25,648 bases of DNA, taken from the NCBI GenBank assembly GCA_947169985.1, contig CAMVRW010000003.1, positions 1 to 25,648 of the forward strand. Reading direction: 5' to 3'. Shown here one piece after another: positions 2,485-25,350 of the stretch (positions within the stretch are counted from its first letter, which is position 1; every line of letters starts with the position of its first letter). The notes below the pieces were generated by a model. That model was not told where the DNA came from. It saw only the letters and a program-made list of their open reading frames with translations, and did no database searches. A program made the translations under genes and the position numbers. The stretch is from an uncultured Butyrivibrio sp. Its GTDB lineage: Bacteria; Bacillota; Clostridia; Lachnospirales; Lachnospiraceae.

Positions 2485-4299
2485 ATGCATATGAGTTTAT
2501 TTAACAGGTTTTCTTCCGAACAGAATAAGAGAGCAAAATCTCTTTCCTTCAGACTTCAGCGCCTTGTGCTGGGGATTGTATTTCTTGTCATTATTTCCTT
2601 CCTTATATCAGTTTTACTTATCTCTGAAAGGGAGCGAAGGGACTATGGAAAGCGGGAGTCAGAGAATATACTTAAGACTCTTTCAAGCAACATATCTTCT
2701 GATATTCAGGGATACTCGGAAATTTCCCGACTGGTTATGACTGAAAGCCGCCTTGTGGATTTTCTTAGGGCAGATTCCTCTGTAGTAGATATCAGTATGA
2801 TCAACGATGCCAGATATGGAGTCATGGATATCCTCAATGTTACTGAGGGTGTGGATACAGTCATAGTCATAAGGAATGATCTGATAATGCTGTCCACAAA
2901 CCGCTTTACCTACTGGTATGATTACGACCTGATGCAGACAGAGGATTGGAAAAAAGATATCATTGACGCCAAGGGTGCAACTGTGATCTCACTAAATTCC
3001 AATGGCGTAGCCCACAAAGCCGGAAACCGTCAGATGGTAACTATCGGCAGAGCAATCTACGATATCGATAGCCAGGACAGAACCGGTATAATGATGATGA
3101 ATATCTCCACCAGAGTCTTTGACAAGATGCTGGGCCAGCTGCGATACAACGATATCTGCATAACCAGTGATGATGGTATTTTCCTTGCAGGTAACGAGAA
3201 ATACGCAGATTACTTCGACAGCTCTTTTTCCGGAAAAGGAATAAGTCACAAGATAGTATCCCTGGGACAGGGGAAGGGACAGGGACTGGTCTCAGGCTGC
3301 AGAGTCGGCAATTTCCCCATTGTGATCCTTAAGGTTTCCTCATTTGGTTCAGAGGGTATTCCCTTCAGAATTATTTACGTGCTGCTGATCCTGTTGATCA
3401 TCTTCGTTGCGGCTACGGTTTACACAGGCTCTTTTGTCAAAAAGAATATTACAGACCCTATATTTGAGCTGTCTGATGCCATCGTCAAGAACAGGGTATC
3501 AGGGGAGCTGAAGATCATAGATAAGCCAATGCCCAACACTGAGCTTGCCATGCTGGAGGGCGATTACAACAACATGATCGACCATGTGAATCAGCTGATC
3601 GACACCCTGATGGAAAAGGAAAAGACACTTCAGAAGGCGGAAATGCGTGTGCTTCAGGAGCAGATAAAACCGCACTTTTTGTACAATTCCCTGGAGACCA
3701 TTGGATTTATGGCGCTGGAAGCAGGGGCGGACAAGGTTCACGATGCATTGGAGACCCTTGGAAGCTTTTATAGGAACTTCTTAAGTAAGGGCGGAAGAGA
3801 GATACCTCTTTCCCGTGAGGTCAAGATCGTTAAGGATTACCTGTCGCTGCAGAAGCTGCGCTACGGTGATATAATAGAGGACGAATATGATGTGGAAGAG
3901 GCGGCGGAATCCTTCATAGTTCCTAAGCTGATCCTGCAGCCTCTGGTTGAGAACAGTATCTACCACGGAATCCGCTTAAAGGGTGAAAAGGGACTTATCA
4001 GTATCAGGGCCTATCTGGAAGAGAAGGCAGCAGATGATGATCTGGTAAAAGAGCTGCACATCATAGTTACGGATACCGGTGTGGGAATGGAAGAGGAACA
4101 GATCAGGAAAATCCTTTCCATGGATAAGAAGGACAGGCCTGCGGAGGCGGATGAGAGCTTTGGACTTTGGGGCACCATCGAGAGGATCCGCATGTATACC
4201 GGCAATGAGGATTGTGTAAAGATCGAGAGTGAAACAGGGGAGTTCACCAGAATCGAGATAACGATACCGGACATGTCTATGACTGGGGCGAAGGTCTGA
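2485..4299 (+). CDS. YesM-type sensor histidine kinase
   Basis: This is a membrane sensor kinase (604 residues) that phosphorylates the response regulator encoded next. The order is: transmembrane helix at about 25-48, an extracellular sensing region to about 292, a second transmembrane helix at about 294-316, a HAMP region, then a His_kinase (PF06580-like) domain with phospho-acceptor His397 in QIKPHFLYN, and a C-terminal ATPase domain. The ATPase N box (PLVENSIYHGI), the DTGVGM motif and a GLWGTIERI glycine region are intact. Kinases of this family typically control sugar uptake or polysaccharide genes, in line with the transporter upstream. The ATG at 2485 lacks a good ribosome-binding site (AGGA lies 17 bases upstream), and an ATG two codons later is an alternative. 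No clear sigma-A promoter was found in the short gap upstream. Confidence 0.93.
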   Translation: MHMSLFNRFSSEQNKRAKSLSFRLQRLVLGIVFLVIISFLISVLLISERERRDYGKRESENILKTLSSNISSDIQGYSEISRLVMTESRLVDFLRADSSVVDISMINDARYGVMDILNVTEGVDTVIVIRNDLIMLSTNRFTYWYDYDLMQTEDWKKDIIDAKGATVISLNSNGVAHKAGNRQMVTIGRAIYDIDSQDRTGIMMMNISTRVFDKMLGQLRYNDICITSDDGIFLAGNEKYADYFDSSFSGKGISHKIVSLGQGKGQGLVSGCRVGNFPIVILKVSSFGSEGIPFRIIYVLLILLIIFVAATVYTGSFVKKNITDPIFELSDAIVKNRVSGELKIIDKPMPNTELAMLEGDYNNMIDHVNQLIDTLMEKEKTLQKAEMRVLQEQIKPHFLYNSLETIGFMALEAGADKVHDALETLGSFYRNFLSKGGREIPLSREVKIVKDYLSLQKLRYGDIIEDEYDVEEAAESFIVPKLILQPLVENSIYHGIRLKGEKGLISIRAYLEEKAADDDLVKELHIIVTDTGVGMEEEQIRKILSMDKKDRPAEADESFGLWGTIERIRMYTGNEDCVKIESETGEFTRIEITIPDMSMTGAKV

Positions 4300-4335
4300 G
4301 AAATCCGGGATGATATATTTGTTGTGGGAGAGAGT

Positions 4336-5103
4336 ATGGACAGAGCTATCAGGGTAATGATAATAGATGACGAGGAGTCAGCCAGAAAGCTGATGAGAGC
4401 AGCCATCAAGTGGGATGAGTTGGGGATGGAGGTTGTCGGGGAAGCAGCCAGTGGAATTGAGGCAATCAACATCATAGATGACCTTAAGCCGGACATCGCT
4501 TTTGTGGACATCTCAATGCCTTTCATGAATGGTATTGAGTTCACTGAGACAGCCACTTCAAGATATCCAAACCTTGTGATCATCATAATGACTGCCATCG
4601 ATCAGTTTGAATATGCAAGGAAATGCGTGAGCCTTCCAGTGTTTGAATATATGTTAAAGCCCATGGTCAGGGAAGAAATCACAAAGGTTCTCGAAAAGGC
4701 CAGGGACAAGATCTCAAAGGAGAAGGACTATTGGGCGGAGCTTGAGGCCAAAGCCGATGATGGCGGAGACCAGGCTGAGTCAGGTTCTACCGATCAGATT
4801 AAAAAGTATCTTGAGGAGAACTTTACTGACTCTAAGCTGAACCTGGCGTTTGTGGCCCAGCACTTTGGCTTTTCTGCCAGCTACCTTTCAAGGAAATTCA
4901 AGCAGGATACAGGAAAAAAATTCGTGGAATATCTCAACGAACTTCGCATGGAAAAAGCGAAGGAGTTTGCAGAGAAGGGCACCAAGATGTACGTTGCAGC
5001 CTCTGACGTAGGCATCCCCGATCCCAACTACTTCTCCAGATGTTTCAAGAAATTCACCGGGAAGAGCTACTCCGACTACATGGCAGAGAATGGGAAAAAC
5101 TGA
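4336..5103 (+). CDS. YesN-type response regulator (receiver plus AraC DNA-binding domain)
   Basis: This is a cytoplasmic transcription regulator of 255 residues and the partner of the preceding kinase. The receiver domain (about 1-125) has the acidic pocket IIDDEES, phospho-acceptor Asp58 in FVDISMPFMNG, the switch Thr in IIMTAID and Lys in MLKPM. The AraC-type domain (about 155-252) has two helix-turn-helix units. The second has the family signature DVGIPDPNYFSRCFKKFTG. The start is set at ATG 4336 because GGGAGAG lies just upstream. A GTG at 4324 in frame has no ribosome-binding site. The gene lies 36 bases after the kinase. Its likely targets are the neighbouring transporter genes (inference). 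Confidence 0.93.
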   Translation: MDRAIRVMIIDDEESARKLMRAAIKWDELGMEVVGEAASGIEAINIIDDLKPDIAFVDISMPFMNGIEFTETATSRYPNLVIIIMTAIDQFEYARKCVSLPVFEYMLKPMVREEITKVLEKARDKISKEKDYWAELEAKADDGGDQAESGSTDQIKKYLEENFTDSKLNLAFVAQHFGFSASYLSRKFKQDTGKKFVEYLNELRMEKAKEFAEKGTKMYVAASDVGIPDPNYFSRCFKKFTGKSYSDYMAENGKN

Positions 5104-6154: not shown

Positions 6155-6183
6155 GTGTGTTAAATAACGGAGGTACGTGTGGC

Positions 6184-8016
6184 ATGTACAAGAAGACTCT
6201 TGTAGGTATTACATCAGCAGTAACAGCAGTTTCAATGGTAATTGCACCTTGCATGACAGCATATGCAGAGGATGTGACAGAGAAGTTGGACATTACCAGT
6301 GATAGAAATATTGAAGGAAATGTAGTTTCTGATGGAACTGATAACAGTCTGATAAATGACGCTCTCGTAGAAGTATCAGGATCTGATACAGACGTTACAA
6401 TAAGTGGAAATGTTGATGGATCTGCGGTTGTTACAGGTGAAGAACAGAGCTATGGTCCAAACTATACATATTTTCATAAATATAACGATACTGAGGTTTA
6501 TGAAATACGTGAATATGACACTCAGACCAAGTCTGGTGGAGCCGAGGCAGGTGTCAGTGTTAGTGGAGGTGCTTCTGTTACTGTTGGTGGCAATGTTATT
6601 GGAGGCGCGAACGGAGCAAGTGTTAGTGATGACAGTGACCTGACTGTTAACGGAGATGTTGTGGCAACTGGTCAGCAGTCAGTTATATCAGGCCATAAAT
6701 ATACCGGTTCAGATATTGTACAGACCACAGGAACTGAAGAAATAAAGCCAGGATCAGATAGAAGCAACTTGGGATATGCAGTAAAGGCAGATGCTACAGC
6801 CAATGAACAGAATGCAATTGGTTACACCAACTACATAGACGGTGCAGGAATCTTTACAGATGGTGACGGAGACATTCTTGTCAAAGGTGATGTAACATCT
6901 GTCGGTTCCGGTATAACAATAGATACCAATACTAACGGAGAAAAAGGCTCTATCACAGTTTTGGGAACCATCAAAGGTGACGAGTACGGTATTGTTATCA
7001 AAGACGGTTATTCCATGCTCGATTACTATGATTCACAGTCCCAGTATTATAACCCTCCGATGACAGGTGGCAGTTATCAGGATTATCATGAAAGATGCAT
7101 TGCAGCAGGCGAGAGCGAGGAAAGCTTCCAGGCAAGAAGCAAAGCAGCCGGTGACAGACTTGTAGCTGAAATGCCTGAGATTACCGTATATGCAATAGAG
7201 AGTAAAAGACTTATCAATAACAGTAGAGATAATGATTATTTTGAAGCTTACCAGGTAGCATACAACCAGGTAGTAAATGCTATCAATTACATCATCAAGC
7301 ACGATGATAATGTAACAGTTACAGCAAGCACAAAGACAATTGATGCTCAGGATTATTTTGTAACCAAGATCAACCAGGCCTTCGAGGTTGCTGCAGATGT
7401 TCCAAGCGGATATTACCTCAGCGGTGGTGAGAATGTTAAGGTTACAGACAAGGGAAATGGACGTTACGAGCTGATCCTTACAGGCATAGGCGGAAAGATC
7501 AACGTAAGAGCTGAGCTCATACCTGTTACTAAGTCAGAAGAAAAGTCATATGATGTTGTGGTAGAAGAGGTATCTCAGAGTGAAACAACACCTGTACAGC
7601 AGATAGTTCCTACATCAACTCAGGCCCTTGCAGCAGTTTCTAATCTTACAAGCCAGGCTGATACTCAGGCATTTATCGCAAAGGTCAGCGGTGAAAAGCC
7701 AGCTCATACAGTAGCATTTGAAGTAAAGAATGTTTCACCTATTCAGTATAAGGAAGCAGTTATCAGTAACGTTGCATCAGTTCCAGCAGGCGGTGCGTTC
7801 AACCTTGTAACTGATCAGCCGTCACTTTTCGATTCCAAAATGGTAGATGCTCTGATGGCAAGAAGTGATATCGACGTTAACGTAGTATTTGGCTATGGCG
7901 GAAAGACCTACAAGGTAGTTATCCCTGCAGGTTACAATATCAGAAGCCTTCTTGATTCAAATGGTTATTGCGGATTCTTAAGACTCCTTGCAATCCTTGG
8001 AGGAACGGTAATCTAA
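6184..8016 (+). CDS. Secreted repeat protein, predicted beta-solenoid N-terminal half
   Basis: I do not recognise a named family for this 610-residue protein. A signal peptide (MYKKTLVGITSAVTAVSMVI..., cleavage likely after AYA, about residue 28) sends it outside. About residues 40-280 contain at least five spaced units built on G-N/D-V-x-G/S/A (for example VTISGNVDGSAVV, VTVGGNVIGGANG, LTVNGDVVATGQQ, ILVKGDVTSVGSG, ITVLGTIKGDEYG). This is the pattern of a right-handed beta-helix made of sequential turns. A Tyr-rich, partly helical segment interrupts at about 280-370. A further beta-rich region and a C-terminal module ending in NGYCGFLRLLAILG follow. The start is ATG 6184 with GGAGG 10 bases upstream; an in-frame GTG at 6157 precedes that ribosome site. 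There is no LPXTG or membrane anchor. It may be an adhesin or surface protein, but this is a guess. Confidence 0.8.
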   Translation: MYKKTLVGITSAVTAVSMVIAPCMTAYAEDVTEKLDITSDRNIEGNVVSDGTDNSLINDALVEVSGSDTDVTISGNVDGSAVVTGEEQSYGPNYTYFHKYNDTEVYEIREYDTQTKSGGAEAGVSVSGGASVTVGGNVIGGANGASVSDDSDLTVNGDVVATGQQSVISGHKYTGSDIVQTTGTEEIKPGSDRSNLGYAVKADATANEQNAIGYTNYIDGAGIFTDGDGDILVKGDVTSVGSGITIDTNTNGEKGSITVLGTIKGDEYGIVIKDGYSMLDYYDSQSQYYNPPMTGGSYQDYHERCIAAGESEESFQARSKAAGDRLVAEMPEITVYAIESKRLINNSRDNDYFEAYQVAYNQVVNAINYIIKHDDNVTVTASTKTIDAQDYFVTKINQAFEVAADVPSGYYLSGGENVKVTDKGNGRYELILTGIGGKINVRAELIPVTKSEEKSYDVVVEEVSQSETTPVQQIVPTSTQALAAVSNLTSQADTQAFIAKVSGEKPAHTVAFEVKNVSPIQYKEAVISNVASVPAGGAFNLVTDQPSLFDSKMVDALMARSDIDVNVVFGYGGKTYKVVIPAGYNIRSLLDSNGYCGFLRLLAILGGTVI

Positions 8017-19889: not shown

Positions 19890-19924
19890 TAATACGAGAT
19901 TTTGTGAGTATTTTTAGGAGCAGC

Positions 19925-20650
19925 ATGGAACCTATTATTGATATTCATTGCCACATTATGCCAGGGGTTGATGATGGTTCGGGGGACATGGCCACAAGCC
20001 TTGAAATGCTGAGAATTGCTGAAAAGAACGGCATAACTCACATGATACTGACTCCACATCATAAGCCAATGCACCACAATGTTAGTCCTGAGCATAACGT
20101 TCTTTACAGAAAAAAACTCCAGGAAGCAGCCAGTGCAGAAGGTATCAAGATAAAGCTCTTTTCTGGAAACGAGATATATTATAGCGACGAGACCATGGAT
20201 GAGTTGGAACAGGGGAAGATATGCTCCCTGGCCGGATCCGACTACGTTCTGGTGGAGTTCCATCCAACAAATCCATTCAGTGCAATACAAAATGCCGCAA
20301 ACCGGGTTCAGGCATATGGCTACAGGCCCATAATAGCCCACGTGGAGAGGTACAGCGATATAGTTTCTCATCCATCGAGAGTTCAGGATCTTATAGATAT
20401 GGGCTGTCTAATACAGGTCAACGCTTCCAGCGTTATGGGGAAGTACGGATTCGGCATCGGACATTTTACAAAGAAGCTCCTTAAGGAGAAGGTTGTTCAC
20501 TTTGTGGCTACAGATGCCCATGATGCAAAAAAGCGAGCTCCGGAGATAGCAGACTGCCGAAGCTTCGTGGAGAGAAAGATCGGACAGGATTATGCAAAAG
20601 AGATATTTCTCCTCAACGCCATAAGTGTGATCCGCAACGAGGAGATTTAA
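19925..20650 (+). CDS. CpsB/CapC-like tyrosine-protein phosphatase (PHP family)
   Basis: This is a cytoplasmic metal-dependent phosphatase of 241 residues. It should remove phosphate from the tyrosine cluster of the CpsD kinase encoded two genes downstream. PHP metal-binding motifs appear in order: IDIHCHIMPGVDDGS near the start, TPHHKP, GNEIYY, IAHVERY and ATDAHD. The length fits the family. The start is ATG 19925 with TAGGAG just upstream; the in-frame GTG at 19904 has no ribosome site. It is the first gene of a seven-gene operon driven from 19861. Confidence 0.93.
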   Translation: MEPIIDIHCHIMPGVDDGSGDMATSLEMLRIAEKNGITHMILTPHHKPMHHNVSPEHNVLYRKKLQEAASAEGIKIKLFSGNEIYYSDETMDELEQGKICSLAGSDYVLVEFHPTNPFSAIQNAANRVQAYGYRPIIAHVERYSDIVSHPSRVQDLIDMGCLIQVNASSVMGKYGFGIGHFTKKLLKEKVVHFVATDAHDAKKRAPEIADCRSFVERKIGQDYAKEIFLLNAISVIRNEEI

Positions 20651-20669: not shown

Positions 20670-21401
20670 ATGGGGAAAAGGGACGACATTATTGAGATCA
20701 ATCTGGGAGAGCTGTTTTCAGTTCTTTTGGGCAGGGCATTTCTGATAATAAGCGCAGGAGTTTTCTTTGCTCTTGCAGGTCTTTTTGTCAGCAAGTTCGT
20801 GCTTCACCCGGTATATGATTCAACCACCAAGATCTACATCCTAAATAAAGAAGAGAATCAGACCGTAACCTATTCTGATGTGCAGATATCCACACAGCTC
20901 ACACAGGATTATGCGGAGCTCATAAAGAGCAGATATGTTCTTGAGGAGGTTATCCAGAGACTGAATCTGGTGGACATGGACTATGATGATCTGTCTGGTG
21001 TCCTCAAGGTGGATACCCCTTCGGACACACGTATCGTGGCAATAACCGTCAGGGACGAAGATCCGCTCATGGCAATGCAGATAGCCAACTGCATAAGGGA
21101 AGTTGCCAGTGAGCACATTGAGAGCGTTATGGATATTGATGCCATCAACGTGGCTGAGACGGCCAATGTTCCTATGGAGAAGTCAGGTCCTTCAGTTATC
21201 AGATGGGGGATAATAGCAGGATTCTTAGGAGCGGTTGTTGTAGCCTTTTTCGTTATCCTGGGATACCTTCTGGATGACACCATAAAGAGTAACGACGACG
21301 TAGAAAGATATCTGGGCCTTAGCACATTGGCTCTTGTACCACTTACCCTGGAGGAGACAGATAAAAAGAAATCCAGGAAAGCTTCAAAGAAAAAGAAGTA
21401 G
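20670..21401 (+). CDS. Wzz/CpsC-like polysaccharide co-polymerase, kinase modulator
   Basis: This is a membrane protein of 243 residues. Two helices (about 18-40 and 172-195) enclose an extracytoplasmic region of about 130 residues, the Wzz topology. In Gram-positive bacteria this protein activates the separate CpsD kinase through its cytoplasmic C-terminus and helps set polysaccharide chain length. The tail here is short and very Lys-rich (about residues 229-243). No kinase domain is fused. The start follows AGGGGAG. It lies 19 bases after the phosphatase gene and 14 before the kinase gene. Confidence 0.9.
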   Translation: MGKRDDIIEINLGELFSVLLGRAFLIISAGVFFALAGLFVSKFVLHPVYDSTTKIYILNKEENQTVTYSDVQISTQLTQDYAELIKSRYVLEEVIQRLNLVDMDYDDLSGVLKVDTPSDTRIVAITVRDEDPLMAMQIANCIREVASEHIESVMDIDAINVAETANVPMEKSGPSVIRWGIIAGFLGAVVVAFFVILGYLLDDTIKSNDDVERYLGLSTLALVPLTLEETDKKKSRKASKKKK

Positions 21402-21415
21402 GAGGGGGATAACAT

Positions 21416-22249
21416 ATGCAGACCGCGAAGCTTCATTTTAGTCAGTCTGAAAACAATTACCAGATAAAAGAAGCATACAAGACCCTCCGAAGCAATGTGG
21501 AATTTTCCGGACAGAACGTGAGGGTGATCTCCATCACCAGCTGTACCCCCGGCGAGGGCAAGACTACAGTAGCCATGGCTCTTGCAAGGGCCTTTGCAGA
21601 AGCAGGAAAAAAGACGGTTCTTGTGGATGCGGATATGAGAAAATCCGTGCTGGTGGGCAGATATAAGACCGGTTCTGTAAGACTGGGGCTGACCCACTGC
21701 CTCGTAGGAAGAGAGAGGCTTTCCAGCGTTATCTGCGAAACTGACACACCAAACCTCTATGTTGTATTTGCAGGACCTGTACCACCGAACCCCAGTGAAC
21801 TTCTGGGGGGCAAAATATTTGGTAAGGTCCTTGAAAATATGAAGCAGGTATTTGACTACGTTATCATAGATACTCCGCCTCTTGGAAGTGTTATTGATGC
21901 GGCGGTTGTAGCCAAGCAGTGCGATGGCACGATTCTTGTAGTGGAAAGCAATTCCATCAGCTACAGGTTTGCCCAAAGGGTTAAGGACCAGCTGGATAAG
22001 GCCGGTGCCAAGATGCTGGGGGCTGTACTGAATAAGGTAGATATCTCCGGAAAGGGCTATTATGGTCACTATGGAGGATACTATGGTAAGTACTACGGTA
22101 AGTATTACGGTAAGTACTACGGCAAGTATGGGGAAGATAATGTTGATATCCCTGCAGCAAGACCAAGTGTGACCAAGCAGGAGACAGAACCGGATGAGGA
22201 TGATCTGGATGAACTCAACTACCTTGCCGGTGTTATGAGGAAAGAATAA
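21416..22249 (+). CDS. CpsD/CapB-type tyrosine-protein kinase (BY-kinase)
   Basis: This is a cytoplasmic bacterial tyrosine kinase of 277 residues that works with the CpsC-like protein. Walker A is SCTPGEGKTT (about 42-51), Walker A' is VLVDADMRKS (about 68-77) and Walker B is YVIIDTPPLG (about 147-156). Residues 215-238 hold 12 tyrosines, mostly as a repeated YYGK unit, which is the autophosphorylation cluster. Unusually, an acidic segment of about 40 residues follows this cluster; in many CpsD proteins the tyrosines end the chain. Its phosphatase is the CpsB-like protein. The ATG at 21416 follows GGAGGGGG. Confidence 0.94.
   Translation: MQTAKLHFSQSENNYQIKEAYKTLRSNVEFSGQNVRVISITSCTPGEGKTTVAMALARAFAEAGKKTVLVDADMRKSVLVGRYKTGSVRLGLTHCLVGRERLSSVICETDTPNLYVVFAGPVPPNPSELLGGKIFGKVLENMKQVFDYVIIDTPPLGSVIDAAVVAKQCDGTILVVESNSISYRFAQRVKDQLDKAGAKMLGAVLNKVDISGKGYYGHYGGYYGKYYGKYYGKYYGKYGEDNVDIPAARPSVTKQETEPDEDDLDELNYLAGVMRKE
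22079..22126 (+). repeat. Four 12-bp tandem units encoding the YYGK repeat
   Basis: Four in-frame copies of TAYTAYGGYAAG encode Tyr-Tyr-Gly-Lys (residues 222-237 of the kinase). Differences are synonymous third-base changes. Copy number could vary by slippage or unequal exchange, changing the number of phosphorylation sites. Confidence 0.9.
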
Positions 22250-22266: not shown

Positions 22267-22737
22267 GTGAAAGGGAATATTTTTGGAGTTTTGTTTTCCA
22301 TATTGAGTGGGGTTCTGATCTTTTTGATCGTGGTGGCCTACACAAGGAGCGATCGTATTGCCCCTGAATTCAGGTTTTCAGCTACAGATACGATCTATGA
22401 TTCCGCCACCACAGACAATGACCTGAAGGTAGGTATCAACGCCTATGACGCCAAGGACGGAGATCTGAGCAGCAGGATCGTTGTAGAGAAGGTGGTCCTG
22501 AACAGGGAAAAAGAGACAGCGGTTGTATATTACGCAGTTGCAGATTATAGCGGCAATGTTACAAAGCAGTCCAGGGTTTTTCCTGCTGACATTGAAGATA
22601 TAGACAAAAATGTGGATCCTGACGAGATCATCGAGGAGGAAGAAGAGCTTTTTCCGGTTCTGGAATTGCCACAGGAACAGGAAGGAGCGGAAGAGGGCGA
22701 CAGTGAATCCTCGGCAACTCAGGAGACCAGTAACTAG
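22267..22737 (+). CDS. Membrane-anchored Ig-like (DUF5011-like) protein
   Basis: This is a 156-residue protein with one N-terminal membrane helix (about 5-25). An extracellular beta-sandwich-like segment follows (about 32-105), with the pattern APEFRFSATDTIYDS ... INAYDAKDGDLSSRI ... YYAVADYSGNVTKQSR. That is the form of DUF5011/HYR-like bacterial Ig domains, which often carry surface interactions. The tail is very acidic (about 108-156). The start is GTG at 22267 behind GGGAGGAG, 17 bases after the kinase stop. Its place between kinase and LCP genes suggests a role in polysaccharide assembly or wall attachment, but no function is known. Confidence 0.72.
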   Translation: MKGNIFGVLFSILSGVLIFLIVVAYTRSDRIAPEFRFSATDTIYDSATTDNDLKVGINAYDAKDGDLSSRIVVEKVVLNREKETAVVYYAVADYSGNVTKQSRVFPADIEDIDKNVDPDEIIEEEEELFPVLELPQEQEGAEEGDSESSATQETSN

Positions 22738-22747
22738 GAGCTAAATT

Positions 22748-23809
22748 ATGCGGGGAAAAGGCAGTGTATTTCTCATTATCTGGGCAAGCCTTATGACACT
22801 TATCGTAGTGGCACTGGTGGGCTTCGAGGCAATGAGGCTATTCGGAAAAGCAAATCTCACAAATAAATCAGCTACCTCAACGCCTATGATGGCCCAGACC
22901 CAGGAGATGGTTCCTGAGGAGAAGGCTTCCACTACCTGGCAGTCTGACTGGGTGCGGTACAATGGCGATGTTTATGATTACAACGAAGATATAACCACCT
23001 TCCTTATTATGGGAATAGACAAGGATGATGAAGTGGTTACAAAGGTCAATGAGGGAATGGATGGAGGACAGGCGGATTCTCTTTTCCTGCTGGTACTAAA
23101 TCCCCATGACCAGTCCATAAAGGTAATTGGCATCAATAGAAATTCCATGGCCAATGTGGATATTTATGATGAGTACGGCAGATATCAGAACACAGTGGTG
23201 GCACAGATCGCTATCCAGCACGGCTTTGGTGATGGTATGGAAAAGAGCTGTGAGTATCAGGTGAAGGCTGTTTCCAATATGTTCTATCAGCTGCCAATCC
23301 ATGGCTATGCGGCCATAAACATGAGCGCCATCCCCACCATCAATGATCAGGTGGGAGGAGTTGATGTAGAGGTTTTAGATGACCTTACCAAGTGGGACAA
23401 GAGCCTTAAAAAAGGGGCTAAGGTCCATCTGGAAGGCAAGAGTGCCTTCCATTATGTTAAGACAAGGGATATTACCATACCCGGTTCAAACGATGACAGA
23501 CTTGAGAGACAGCGTCAGTACCTTAATGGATTTATTGAGGCTGCAAGGAAGGCAAGTGAAGAAAACCCAAATGCAGCAGTGGAACTGTTTACAGCCATCA
23601 GCAATCAGATGGTAACAGACATCACGCCTGATGAGATAAGCTATCTTGCACCTGACCTTACCAGGTACAGCTTCGATGCTGATGATCTTAAGATGATAAA
23701 GGGCACCACGCAGAAAAATGGGGCCTATGAAGAATTCATTGTTGATGAGGATGATCTCTACAATACAATAATTGAAACTTTTTATGAAAAACTTGATAAT
23801 TTGGACTAA
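22748..23809 (+). CDS. LytR-CpsA-Psr (LCP) family glycopolymer ligase
   Basis: This is a membrane-anchored extracellular enzyme of 353 residues. LCP proteins transfer lipid-linked glycopolymers to peptidoglycan or proteins. One helix near the N-terminus (about 8-30) precedes a Ser/Thr-rich linker and the LCP domain (about 75-320). Visible motifs are FLIMGIDKDD, GQADSLFLLVLNP, VIGINRNSMANV and the Arg-rich HYVKTRDITIPGSNDDRLE, then RQRQYL, which holds the conserved arginines that bind the pyrophosphate. The start follows AGGAGC, 10 bases after the Ig-like gene. It probably anchors the polysaccharide whose synthesis the CpsBCD proteins control. Confidence 0.92.
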   Translation: MRGKGSVFLIIWASLMTLIVVALVGFEAMRLFGKANLTNKSATSTPMMAQTQEMVPEEKASTTWQSDWVRYNGDVYDYNEDITTFLIMGIDKDDEVVTKVNEGMDGGQADSLFLLVLNPHDQSIKVIGINRNSMANVDIYDEYGRYQNTVVAQIAIQHGFGDGMEKSCEYQVKAVSNMFYQLPIHGYAAINMSAIPTINDQVGGVDVEVLDDLTKWDKSLKKGAKVHLEGKSAFHYVKTRDITIPGSNDDRLERQRQYLNGFIEAARKASEENPNAAVELFTAISNQMVTDITPDEISYLAPDLTRYSFDADDLKMIKGTTQKNGAYEEFIVDEDDLYNTIIETFYEKLDNLD

Positions 23810-23813
23810 ATAA

Positions 23814-24602
23814 ATGCATAAATTATGCCGAAATAACTACATAGATGGGAATGCGTTGAGACTAGGCATTTCTATTTGCCTTGTGCTTTTTCTTCTGGCA
23901 GGTTGCGGGAAGGGAAGCCCTAAAGATCAGGAGATGGCAACGGGCGCGGGCGCGGAGGAATCAGGCAATGTGCACGTTGATATGACGACACTTCAGGAAC
24001 AGAACGAAGATATCTTCGCCTGGATAAATGTTCCCGGTACCGGCATAGATTATCCTGTGTGCCAGAGCGGCGAGGGGGATGACAGTTTTTATATCACCCA
24101 TAACTACTTGAAGCAGGAGGATCCCAAGGGGGCTATTTATACAGAATGCGCAAATCTTAAGAATATGTGCGACTTTAACGAAGTGCTTCATGGATCATCT
24201 CCAGAAGATGGTACCATGTTCAGTGATCTTCAGAAATTCCTGGACAAAAAGTTTTTTGACGAACACGAATATATATATGTATATACAGAAGATAATGCAC
24301 TGATCTACATGATCTTTGCGGCATATACAAGAGAAGATATAAGGCTGATCGAGGAATATGATTTTACCTATGTTTCCGGGTGCAAAGCTTTTCTGGATGA
24401 GATTTACCAGAACAGGAGCATGAGTAAGCAGATCCGTTCCGGATGGGAGAACATGGTTCAGCCTGAAAATTTCATTATCACCCTTACAACAAGGAGTAAG
24501 GATGACCCTTCCAAGCAGACAGTTGTTATAGGATGTCTTGTAGGCGACCTTAAGGGGACTATAGACAGATATCTGGATTATTCAGATGGATACGGAGAAT
24601 AA
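23814..24602 (+). CDS. Sortase-B-like lipoprotein lacking catalytic residues (pseudo-sortase)
   Basis: This is an exported lipoprotein of 262 residues with lipobox LLAGC (Cys31). The body follows the class B sortase order: INVPGTGIDYPVCQS, YITHNYLKQEDPKGAIYTE, EDGTMFSDLQKFLDKKFF, EYIYVYTEDNALIYMIFAAY and a final VVIGCLVGD strand. The active site is gone. In the usual IYGHxxxDGxMF motif this protein has LHGSSPEDGTMF, with Ser128 in place of the catalytic His. In TLSTC it has TLTTR, with Arg227 in place of the Cys. The conserved Arg of the next strand is replaced by Gln235. It is therefore unlikely to be a transpeptidase and may bind sorting-like peptides or other proteins. The ATG at 23814 has no ribosome site and lies 4 bases after the LCP stop, so it is probably coupled. 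A TTG at 23856 is an alternative. Confidence 0.85.
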   Translation: MHKLCRNNYIDGNALRLGISICLVLFLLAGCGKGSPKDQEMATGAGAEESGNVHVDMTTLQEQNEDIFAWINVPGTGIDYPVCQSGEGDDSFYITHNYLKQEDPKGAIYTECANLKNMCDFNEVLHGSSPEDGTMFSDLQKFLDKKFFDEHEYIYVYTEDNALIYMIFAAYTREDIRLIEEYDFTYVSGCKAFLDEIYQNRSMSKQIRSGWENMVQPENFIITLTTRSKDDPSKQTVVIGCLVGDLKGTIDRYLDYSDGYGE

Positions 24603-24687
24603 TTAAGAACATCAAGCGTCGGATGTGACCGACCTGGAATAGACTGTAACGATAAATTATTAAAATATGAAGGATGGAGGCAAAAAA

Positions 24688-25350
24688 ATGAAAAGGATTC
24701 TTGCTTTGGCACTTGCATCTGTAATGATGGTATCGTCCACAATCTGCGTATGTGCTGCAGAAACAACTACTGGAGAAGACCAGTCTGTTACCATGAGTCC
24801 TGAGACCAAGAAGGTAATCGAGGATCTCCAGAATGAGATCAAGGGACTTGAAAACCAGATCAATGATCTGATAAAGGCTGTTCAGGCTTCTCAGAGTAAA
24901 AGCGGCGGAGGCGGCAGCAGCAGCAGTCCATCAACACCTTCGGCTCCTCCTACAAATACAGGTAATTCCGTTTCCTATGGAGGAACAGTTGCATATCAGG
25001 GCGGTAAGGTTGAGATCAATGGCGGAAAGAGCAATGTTACTTTCACAATCAAGGCTCCTTCAAGCGGTGTAATGTCATCAGCTAATTCATTGGCAACAAG
25101 ACTTGGCGGATCACTTCTTACCTGCATCAACACAAGTTCACCCGGAGTTGCATTCTCCAATGCGAAGGTTAACTTCTTTGTAAGCGGTGTAACAAATGCA
25201 GATAACGTCGCTGTATATCAGAACCAGAACGGAACATGGGTACAGCTGGTAGTTGCAGAGGTTCGTCAGGATCACGTGGTTGTAAACCTTTCAAGACACG
25301 GCGATATAGCATTTGTAAGAGTTCCTGTACTTGCATCAGTAACACATTAA
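24688..25350 (+). CDS. Secreted coiled-coil and beta-domain protein, unknown function
   Basis: I do not recognise this 220-residue protein. The signal peptide (MKRILALALASVMMVSSTIC..., cleavage after CAA) is followed by a coiled coil (about 37-64, EDLQNEIKGLENQINDLIKA), a Gly/Ser/Pro linker (about 68-93) and a beta-rich domain (about 95-220). The linker encodes runs of Gly and Ser, typical of flexible surface stalks. The start is ATG 24688 behind GGATGGAGG; the in-frame ATG at 24667 lies before the ribosome site. It lies 85 bases after the pseudo-sortase gene, so it may be co-transcribed or have its own promoter, although none is convincing. It has no LPXTG motif or membrane anchor, so it is released or held by a partner. 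Confidence 0.75.
   Translation: MKRILALALASVMMVSSTICVCAAETTTGEDQSVTMSPETKKVIEDLQNEIKGLENQINDLIKAVQASQSKSGGGGSSSSPSTPSAPPTNTGNSVSYGGTVAYQGGKVEINGGKSNVTFTIKAPSSGVMSSANSLATRLGGSLLTCINTSSPGVAFSNAKVNFFVSGVTNADNVAVYQNQNGTWVQLVVAEVRQDHVVVNLSRHGDIAFVRVPVLASVTH

Follow-up and report, generated by a model that had tools for sequence, protein, structure and literature searches.

A lipobox-bearing class B sortase homologue without a catalytic triad, and its untagged secreted partner, in a Butyrivibrio capsule/EPS operon

Gene order of the operon

The window, a stretch of 25,648 nucleotides from an uncultured Butyrivibrio sp., carries a capsule/EPS operon in the order php-wzz-byk-Ig-LCP-srt-sec, all genes on the + strand. 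The conserved block opens with a CpsB/CapC PHP tyrosine phosphatase (19904..20650; PF19567, 338.6 bits). This is followed by a Wzz/CpsC-type chain length determinant (20670..21401; PF02706, 69.5 bits; TIGR01006, 168.7 bits, below the cut-off of 296) and a BY-kinase, a polysaccharide biosynthesis tyrosine autokinase (21416..22249; TIGR01007, 239 bits). A membrane protein that matches an Ig-like profile only weakly (22267..22737; PF16403, 14.9 bits, below cut-off; neighbour conservation) lies between the BY-kinase and an LCP (LytR-CpsA-Psr) family glycopolymer transferase (22748..23809). The latter scored 69 bits with PF03816, above cut-off, and 56.8 bits with TIGR00350, below the cut-off of 62.3. 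Directly downstream lie srt (23814..24602), encoding a lipoprotein of class B sortase fold, and sec (24667..25350), encoding a secreted protein. Elsewhere in the window, positions 6157-8016 encode a secreted-looking protein of 619 aa without a Pfam match.

The order LCP-srt-sec was kept in 49/49 fetched same-genus orthologue loci; the place that a preliminary description had given to srt, between an LCP and a secreted anchorless protein, is thus a fixed one. The Ig-like gene lay beyond the fetched piece in two of these loci (L010, L050). All 79 intact named loci gave matches to LCP and to sec, with sec at the locus start and not downstream of srt in L104. Sortases were classed as active or dead by their triad, and an LCP gene was located within 3.5 kb of 85/85 dead and 48/51 active sortases examined.

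A second, divergent LCP-dead sortase module was observed in another EPS-type locus of genomes G024, G044, G069 and G074 (L252, L253, L254 and L256). The sec profile matched the next gene in L252, L253 and L254 (47, 58 and 50 bits); in L256 the next gene had no sec profile match and resembles sec only by look. The sec-like protein of this module is followed by a membrane protein and then by another, large one. A very divergent changed-triad sortase-like gene beside an LCP gene in the window's genus (L255, 5029-5892) may belong to the same module.

Triad loss and conservation of the sortase scaffold

The srt gene is an intact open reading frame of 262 aa with an ATG start. It scored 120.7 bits against TIGR03064 (NCBIfam, class B sortase; cut-off 153.75), a cut-off also just missed by the intact-triad sortase of L259 (153.1 bits), and 24.1 against Pfam Sortase (cut-off 26.6). 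Residues 56-244 of the srt model superposed on residues 67-249 of 5b23 with an rmsd of 2.1. The protein has a predicted SrtB fold and lacks all three catalytic residues, His, Cys and Arg. Ser128, within LHGSSPEDGTMF, Arg227, within TLTTR, and Gln235 fell on the His, Cys and Arg columns in alignments with solved SrtB and Lachnospiraceae SrtB sequences, residue equivalence being based on sequence/profile alignment and the overall superposition. The preliminary description, which had placed Ser128, Arg227 and Gln235 on the triad of a retained sortase scaffold, was borne out by the alignments and the fold model. Of the structural check that it had proposed, the superposition agreed overall and the placement of individual residues came from the sequence/profile alignment. 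Clade-typical residues of srt are C119, C190 and GWE210-212, with D245, G248, I250 and R252 towards the C terminus.

Bacterial lipoproteins carry a lipobox with an invariant Cys after a hydrophobic stretch. In srt this is LLAGC, with the lipobox Cys at position 31. A lipobox was present in 81/85 dead sortases (68 by rule, 13 by eye) versus 1/51 active ones; it was absent from dead members L109, L129 and L332 and doubtful in L255. The earlier assignment as a lipoprotein therefore holds for srt and does not extend to every dead member.

For the same-genus scan, 79 Butyrivibrio genomes were searched with an orthologue threshold of at least 183 bits, and an srt orthologue was present in 62. In an alignment of 50 sequences (49 orthologues and the window srt), 0/50 had His at position 128 or Cys at position 227 and 50/50 kept Cys31; the exceptions to Gln235 were L050 (Arg) and L025 (Glu). 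With 49 same-genus orthologues and no restored His128 or Cys227 among them, a sequencing error is disfavoured and the intact frame stands as first described. A wider scan, with one genome per species and the best 80 of 163 relatives kept, brought other genomes, mostly titled Lachnospiraceae and including Parablautia muri (L117). The named-genome set comprised 79 intact loci (L054-L132), the split copy L133 being left out, and 0/79 had the catalytic His or Cys. Position 235 was Gln in 78 of these and Glu in L073. Position 128 was occupied by Ser, Lys, Ala, Val, Asn, Arg, Gln, Asp or Gly, and position 227 was as variable. Judged from these alignments, columns 128 and 227 are free to drift and only Gln235 is newly near-fixed. 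In the homologue comparison that the preliminary description had asked for, triad loss recurred with an LCP neighbour and mostly with a lipobox, the exact residues S128 and R227 not being conserved.

Two control sets were analysed. Of 28 class B sortases from other genera, selected on profile score alone, 27 had an H/C/R triad and one had Q/H/R (L159). Among 20 other SrtB homologues in Butyrivibrio, selected on score, the triad was H/C/R in 16, H/C/Q in one and dead in three. By these counts the triad loss exceeds chance or sequencing error and is a clade-wide family trait of Butyrivibrio, which lives in rumen and gut, and of some relatives. Butyrivibrio sp. FCS014 (G022) carries three copies of the dead sortase, one intact, one split and one stop-ridden (L133; G022:C12, G022:C17).

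dN/dS was 0.05-0.45 in 24 pairs with dS of 0.02-0.93, the pairs overlapping, several sharing members, and so not being independent; 23 columns were invariant in 42 sequences. Conservation was compared between 78 non-redundant dead and 26 active sequences, with L159 left out. Positions conserved in the dead set only included Phe68, Met118, Cys119, Phe121, Asn161, Arg173, Tyr182, Gly189-Cys190, Gly210-Trp211-Glu212, Gln235, Asp245, Gly248 and Arg252. The beta6-beta7 region was more conserved in dead than in active sequences (mean entropy 1.51 versus 2.00), and the old-His loop (1.36 versus 0.99) and the beta7-beta8 part (1.48 versus 1.34) were less conserved. On this codon and column evidence the dead sortase is under purifying selection, which supports the earlier suggestion that it was selected for a non-catalytic role.

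The secreted partner and the tagged partners of active sortases

The sec protein has a signal peptide, a helix at 45-76, a Gly/Ser/Pro linker and a C-terminal beta domain at about 95-220. The window sec has no sorting signal: it ends without motif or tail and gave no LPXTG_anchor match at E 1. The sorting motif rule matched 0/75 sec proteins. A sec-like partner was found downstream of 81/85 dead sortases, the exceptions being L098 (contig end), L104, L255 and L256, and no credible sorting motif was found among the sec-like partners of the 85 dead sortases. The only match to the motif rule, LASTN at the end of the L073 partner, was rejected as it has no Pro and no tail. Across the genus, sec (at least 130 bits) was present in 61/62 genomes with an srt orthologue versus 0/17 without one, triads having been read in 50 of the 62. 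The sole orthologue-bearing genome without sec was G077, in which srt lies at a contig edge.

Other Lachnospiraceae have a similar arrangement, in which an active SrtB is followed by a 200-270 aa secreted protein ending SPKTG. The order in L264 is php-wzz-byk-LCP-SrtB(H/C/R)-SPKTG protein; L260 has the same order from wzz on, and L259 has LCP-SrtB-SPKTG protein. Both SPKTG proteins tested from L259/L260/L264 passed the LPXTG_anchor cut-off (NCBIfam, 15.9) with 25.7 and 25.0, and 15/42 tagged partners matched this profile at E 0.1. The SPKTG-tagged protein is expected to be welded to peptidoglycan by the active SrtB.

A sec-like partner with a motif was found for 41/48 active LCP-linked SrtB by rule, or 42 on adding L263 (APQTG) by eye; any secreted motif protein was found for 43/48 by rule, L263 again adding one by eye. 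Since the triad itself defines the active rows, only its joint pattern with the tag is informative in these counts. Thirty of the 48 came from loci L297-L326, which were fetched on a tagged-protein profile match, and 30/30 of these had a motif protein. For the 18 from other loci a tagged neighbour was present in 13/18 by rule (14/18 with L263), and a sec-like protein in only 12/18. The LCP gene lay after the sortase in 31 of the 48, before it in 15 and on both sides in 2.

Seven active-SrtB partners end within 3 residues of S/APKTG and, unlike classical sorting signals, have no membrane helix or charged tail after it (L261 3757-4569 and 4626-5360; L262 4617-5387; L306 6014-6565; L308 6095-6862 and 9308-9937; L312 2732-3376).

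The C-terminal part of sec is homologous to the domain preceding SPKTG in the active-SrtB partners. Comparison with the tagged partners by hhalign gave a probability of 98.3 and an E-value of 1.2e-14 over 57 columns with 42 rows, and E-values of 2.1e-11 with 5 rows and 1.8e-13 with 8; negative controls against the sortase alignment gave 6.9% and 0.5%. Proteins with the sec domain were also observed without a recognised sortase or LCP among the nearby listed ORFs (L223 7477-8142, L224 4367-5251, L225 5857-6423).

Origin, proposed function and known systems

An unrooted tree of 104 sortases was calculated with the triad columns excluded. Two changes of active/dead state were needed on this tree. 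Forty-one dead rows form one clade (95/88, starred), or 40 without the long-branched L255 (98/92). This clade is nested inside a supported group of 63 (96/90), which also contains 21 active rows, 20 being LCP-linked. On its own the unrooted tree fits loss and gain alike; the catalytic triad is common to sortases at large, and for this reason the sensible reading is that it was lost, not gained, in the dead clade. Judged from its sequence, srt is not an active sortase but a pseudoenzyme that descends from a class B sortase in the capsule/EPS operon of Lachnospiraceae. Likewise sec likely lost its tag in this lineage, a direction suggested by the absence of the tag together with the triad and by the tagged homologues in relatives.

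L332 branches apart from the main dead clade. This gene (3616-4491, the same gene as that of L159) encodes a Q/H/R sortase of another genus, lies by an LCP gene and has a membrane helix and no lipobox. Its sec-like partner has no motif; this is one case, and it fits co-loss. We tentatively propose, with slightly less than even confidence, that evolution turned the covalent anchoring of a sortase substrate to the wall into non-covalent tethering of the pair at the membrane, with the triad lost, a lipid anchor gained, the tag lost and the LCP tie kept; L332 would be a partial parallel outside the clade, with its membrane helix kept.

The dead sortase may anchor sec non-covalently at the membrane or escort it there, a proposal to which we give an even chance. 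It would sit on the outside of the membrane next to LCP, where a putative contact with sec would allow it to anchor or escort that protein, and the operon polymer would be displayed or handed over at the membrane or wall without a transpeptidation step. Tethering or escort of sec is ranked as the best single mechanism, and a role as an accessory of LCP or of the polymer is ranked next, as the less probable of the two. Binding of wall proteins or glycopolymer, as suggested in the preliminary description, is a putative role. In favour of tethering are the fixed order LCP-srt-sec, the co-occurrence of sec with the srt orthologue, the second dead module, the homology of sec with the tagged partners, the joint absence of triad and tag, the low dN/dS, the lipobox and the need for srtB4 in the capsule of Mediterraneibacter gnavus described below. 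Against tethering, loss of the tag would also mean loss of the ligand of the old groove, and sec would have to be contacted through a different surface. The lower conservation of the old-His loop and the beta7-beta8 part than in active sortases also argues against it, as does the occurrence of sec-like proteins without a nearby sortase in three other Lachnospiraceae genomes (G341, G215, G138). Further points against it are the choice of 30 of the 48 active cases by their tagged partner, with lower counts in the other 18, and the frequently different position of LCP around active sortases.

As an accessory, the dead sortase would position LCP, bind lipid-linked polymer or nascent peptidoglycan, or gate export, and sec would be an independent surface protein encoded in the same operon. 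We consider this rather unlikely, though the nearness of LCP to active as well as dead sortases makes the sortase-LCP tie wider than the dead clade, and solitary sec-like proteins fit it too. Alone it leaves the near-perfect co-occurrence of sec with the dead sortase unexplained; co-inheritance of the operon could explain that. A displaced active site, in which Cys190, Cys119 or His126 would serve a different reaction, is improbable. With L255 and L332 excluded, Cys190 occurs in 39/40 and Cys119 in 37/40 dead rows, and neither is the prevailing residue among 62 active rows; His126 reaches 85% in the dead set, at a position that is Tyr in active sortases. However, no nucleophile replaces Cys227, columns 128 and 227 drift, some members have Thr in place of Cys119, and a disulfide is an equally simple reading of the two Cys. 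The extra split and stop-ridden copies of Butyrivibrio sp. FCS014 are what a decaying, functionless gene would leave, but decay is very improbable for the family given the intact gene in 79 named loci, the low dN/dS, the invariant columns and the fixed operon place.

Sortases are known as enzymes. If the anchor or escort proposal is true, a dead sortase that is lipid-anchored, under selection and shared by a whole clade, next to an untagged relative of a sortase substrate, would be a clear case of a pseudoenzyme in surface display. The srt gene gives a direct way to ask whether the sortase-LCP-capsule tie in Lachnospiraceae is one of catalysis or of binding only. Where such genes carry the label class B sortase, they should be kept out of sortase counts.

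In the available part of the report on Mediterraneibacter gnavus ATCC 29149, the locus tag of srtB4 (RGna_12035) adjoins that of an LCP gene (RGna_12040) in the CPS cluster, with a tyrosine phosphatase (RGna_12055) nearby (PMC13121745). The srtB4 mutant had no capsule halo and far less wall polysaccharide; a clean deletion agreed and a plasmid copy restored presentation, and srtB4 is thus required for surface CPS (PMC13121745). A catalytic-site mutant is not reported in that part of the paper (PMC13121745). The excerpted account of Actinomyces oris describes an LCP enzyme that glycosylates a sortase-anchored protein (PMC6381275), and the excerpt on B. proteoclasticus describes copious EPS in that species and EPS in most Butyrivibrio strains (PMC2914790). 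These three reports together make polysaccharide display the likely output of the operon.

The class B sortases of known structure (5b23, 1qwz, 4lfd) have an uncleaved N-terminal helix; srt has a lipobox instead, and it lacks the triad His, Cys and Arg and a tagged substrate next door. SrtB4 of M. gnavus resembles srt as a class B sortase homologue by an LCP gene in a polysaccharide cluster, the neighbours being known by locus tag alone; unlike srt it is treated as a sortase in the part of the report available (PMC13121745). The LcpA-GspA-SrtA system of A. oris, as far as the excerpt describes it, is alike in that an LCP enzyme works together with a surface protein which is sortase-linked and accepts the glycan (PMC6381275). 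There SrtA is an active housekeeping enzyme and GspA carries a sorting signal (PMC6381275), whereas the srt-sec pair has neither catalysis nor signal. Compared with the LCP-GspA type, LCP and sec flank a dead sortase, and sec is a putative acceptor only.
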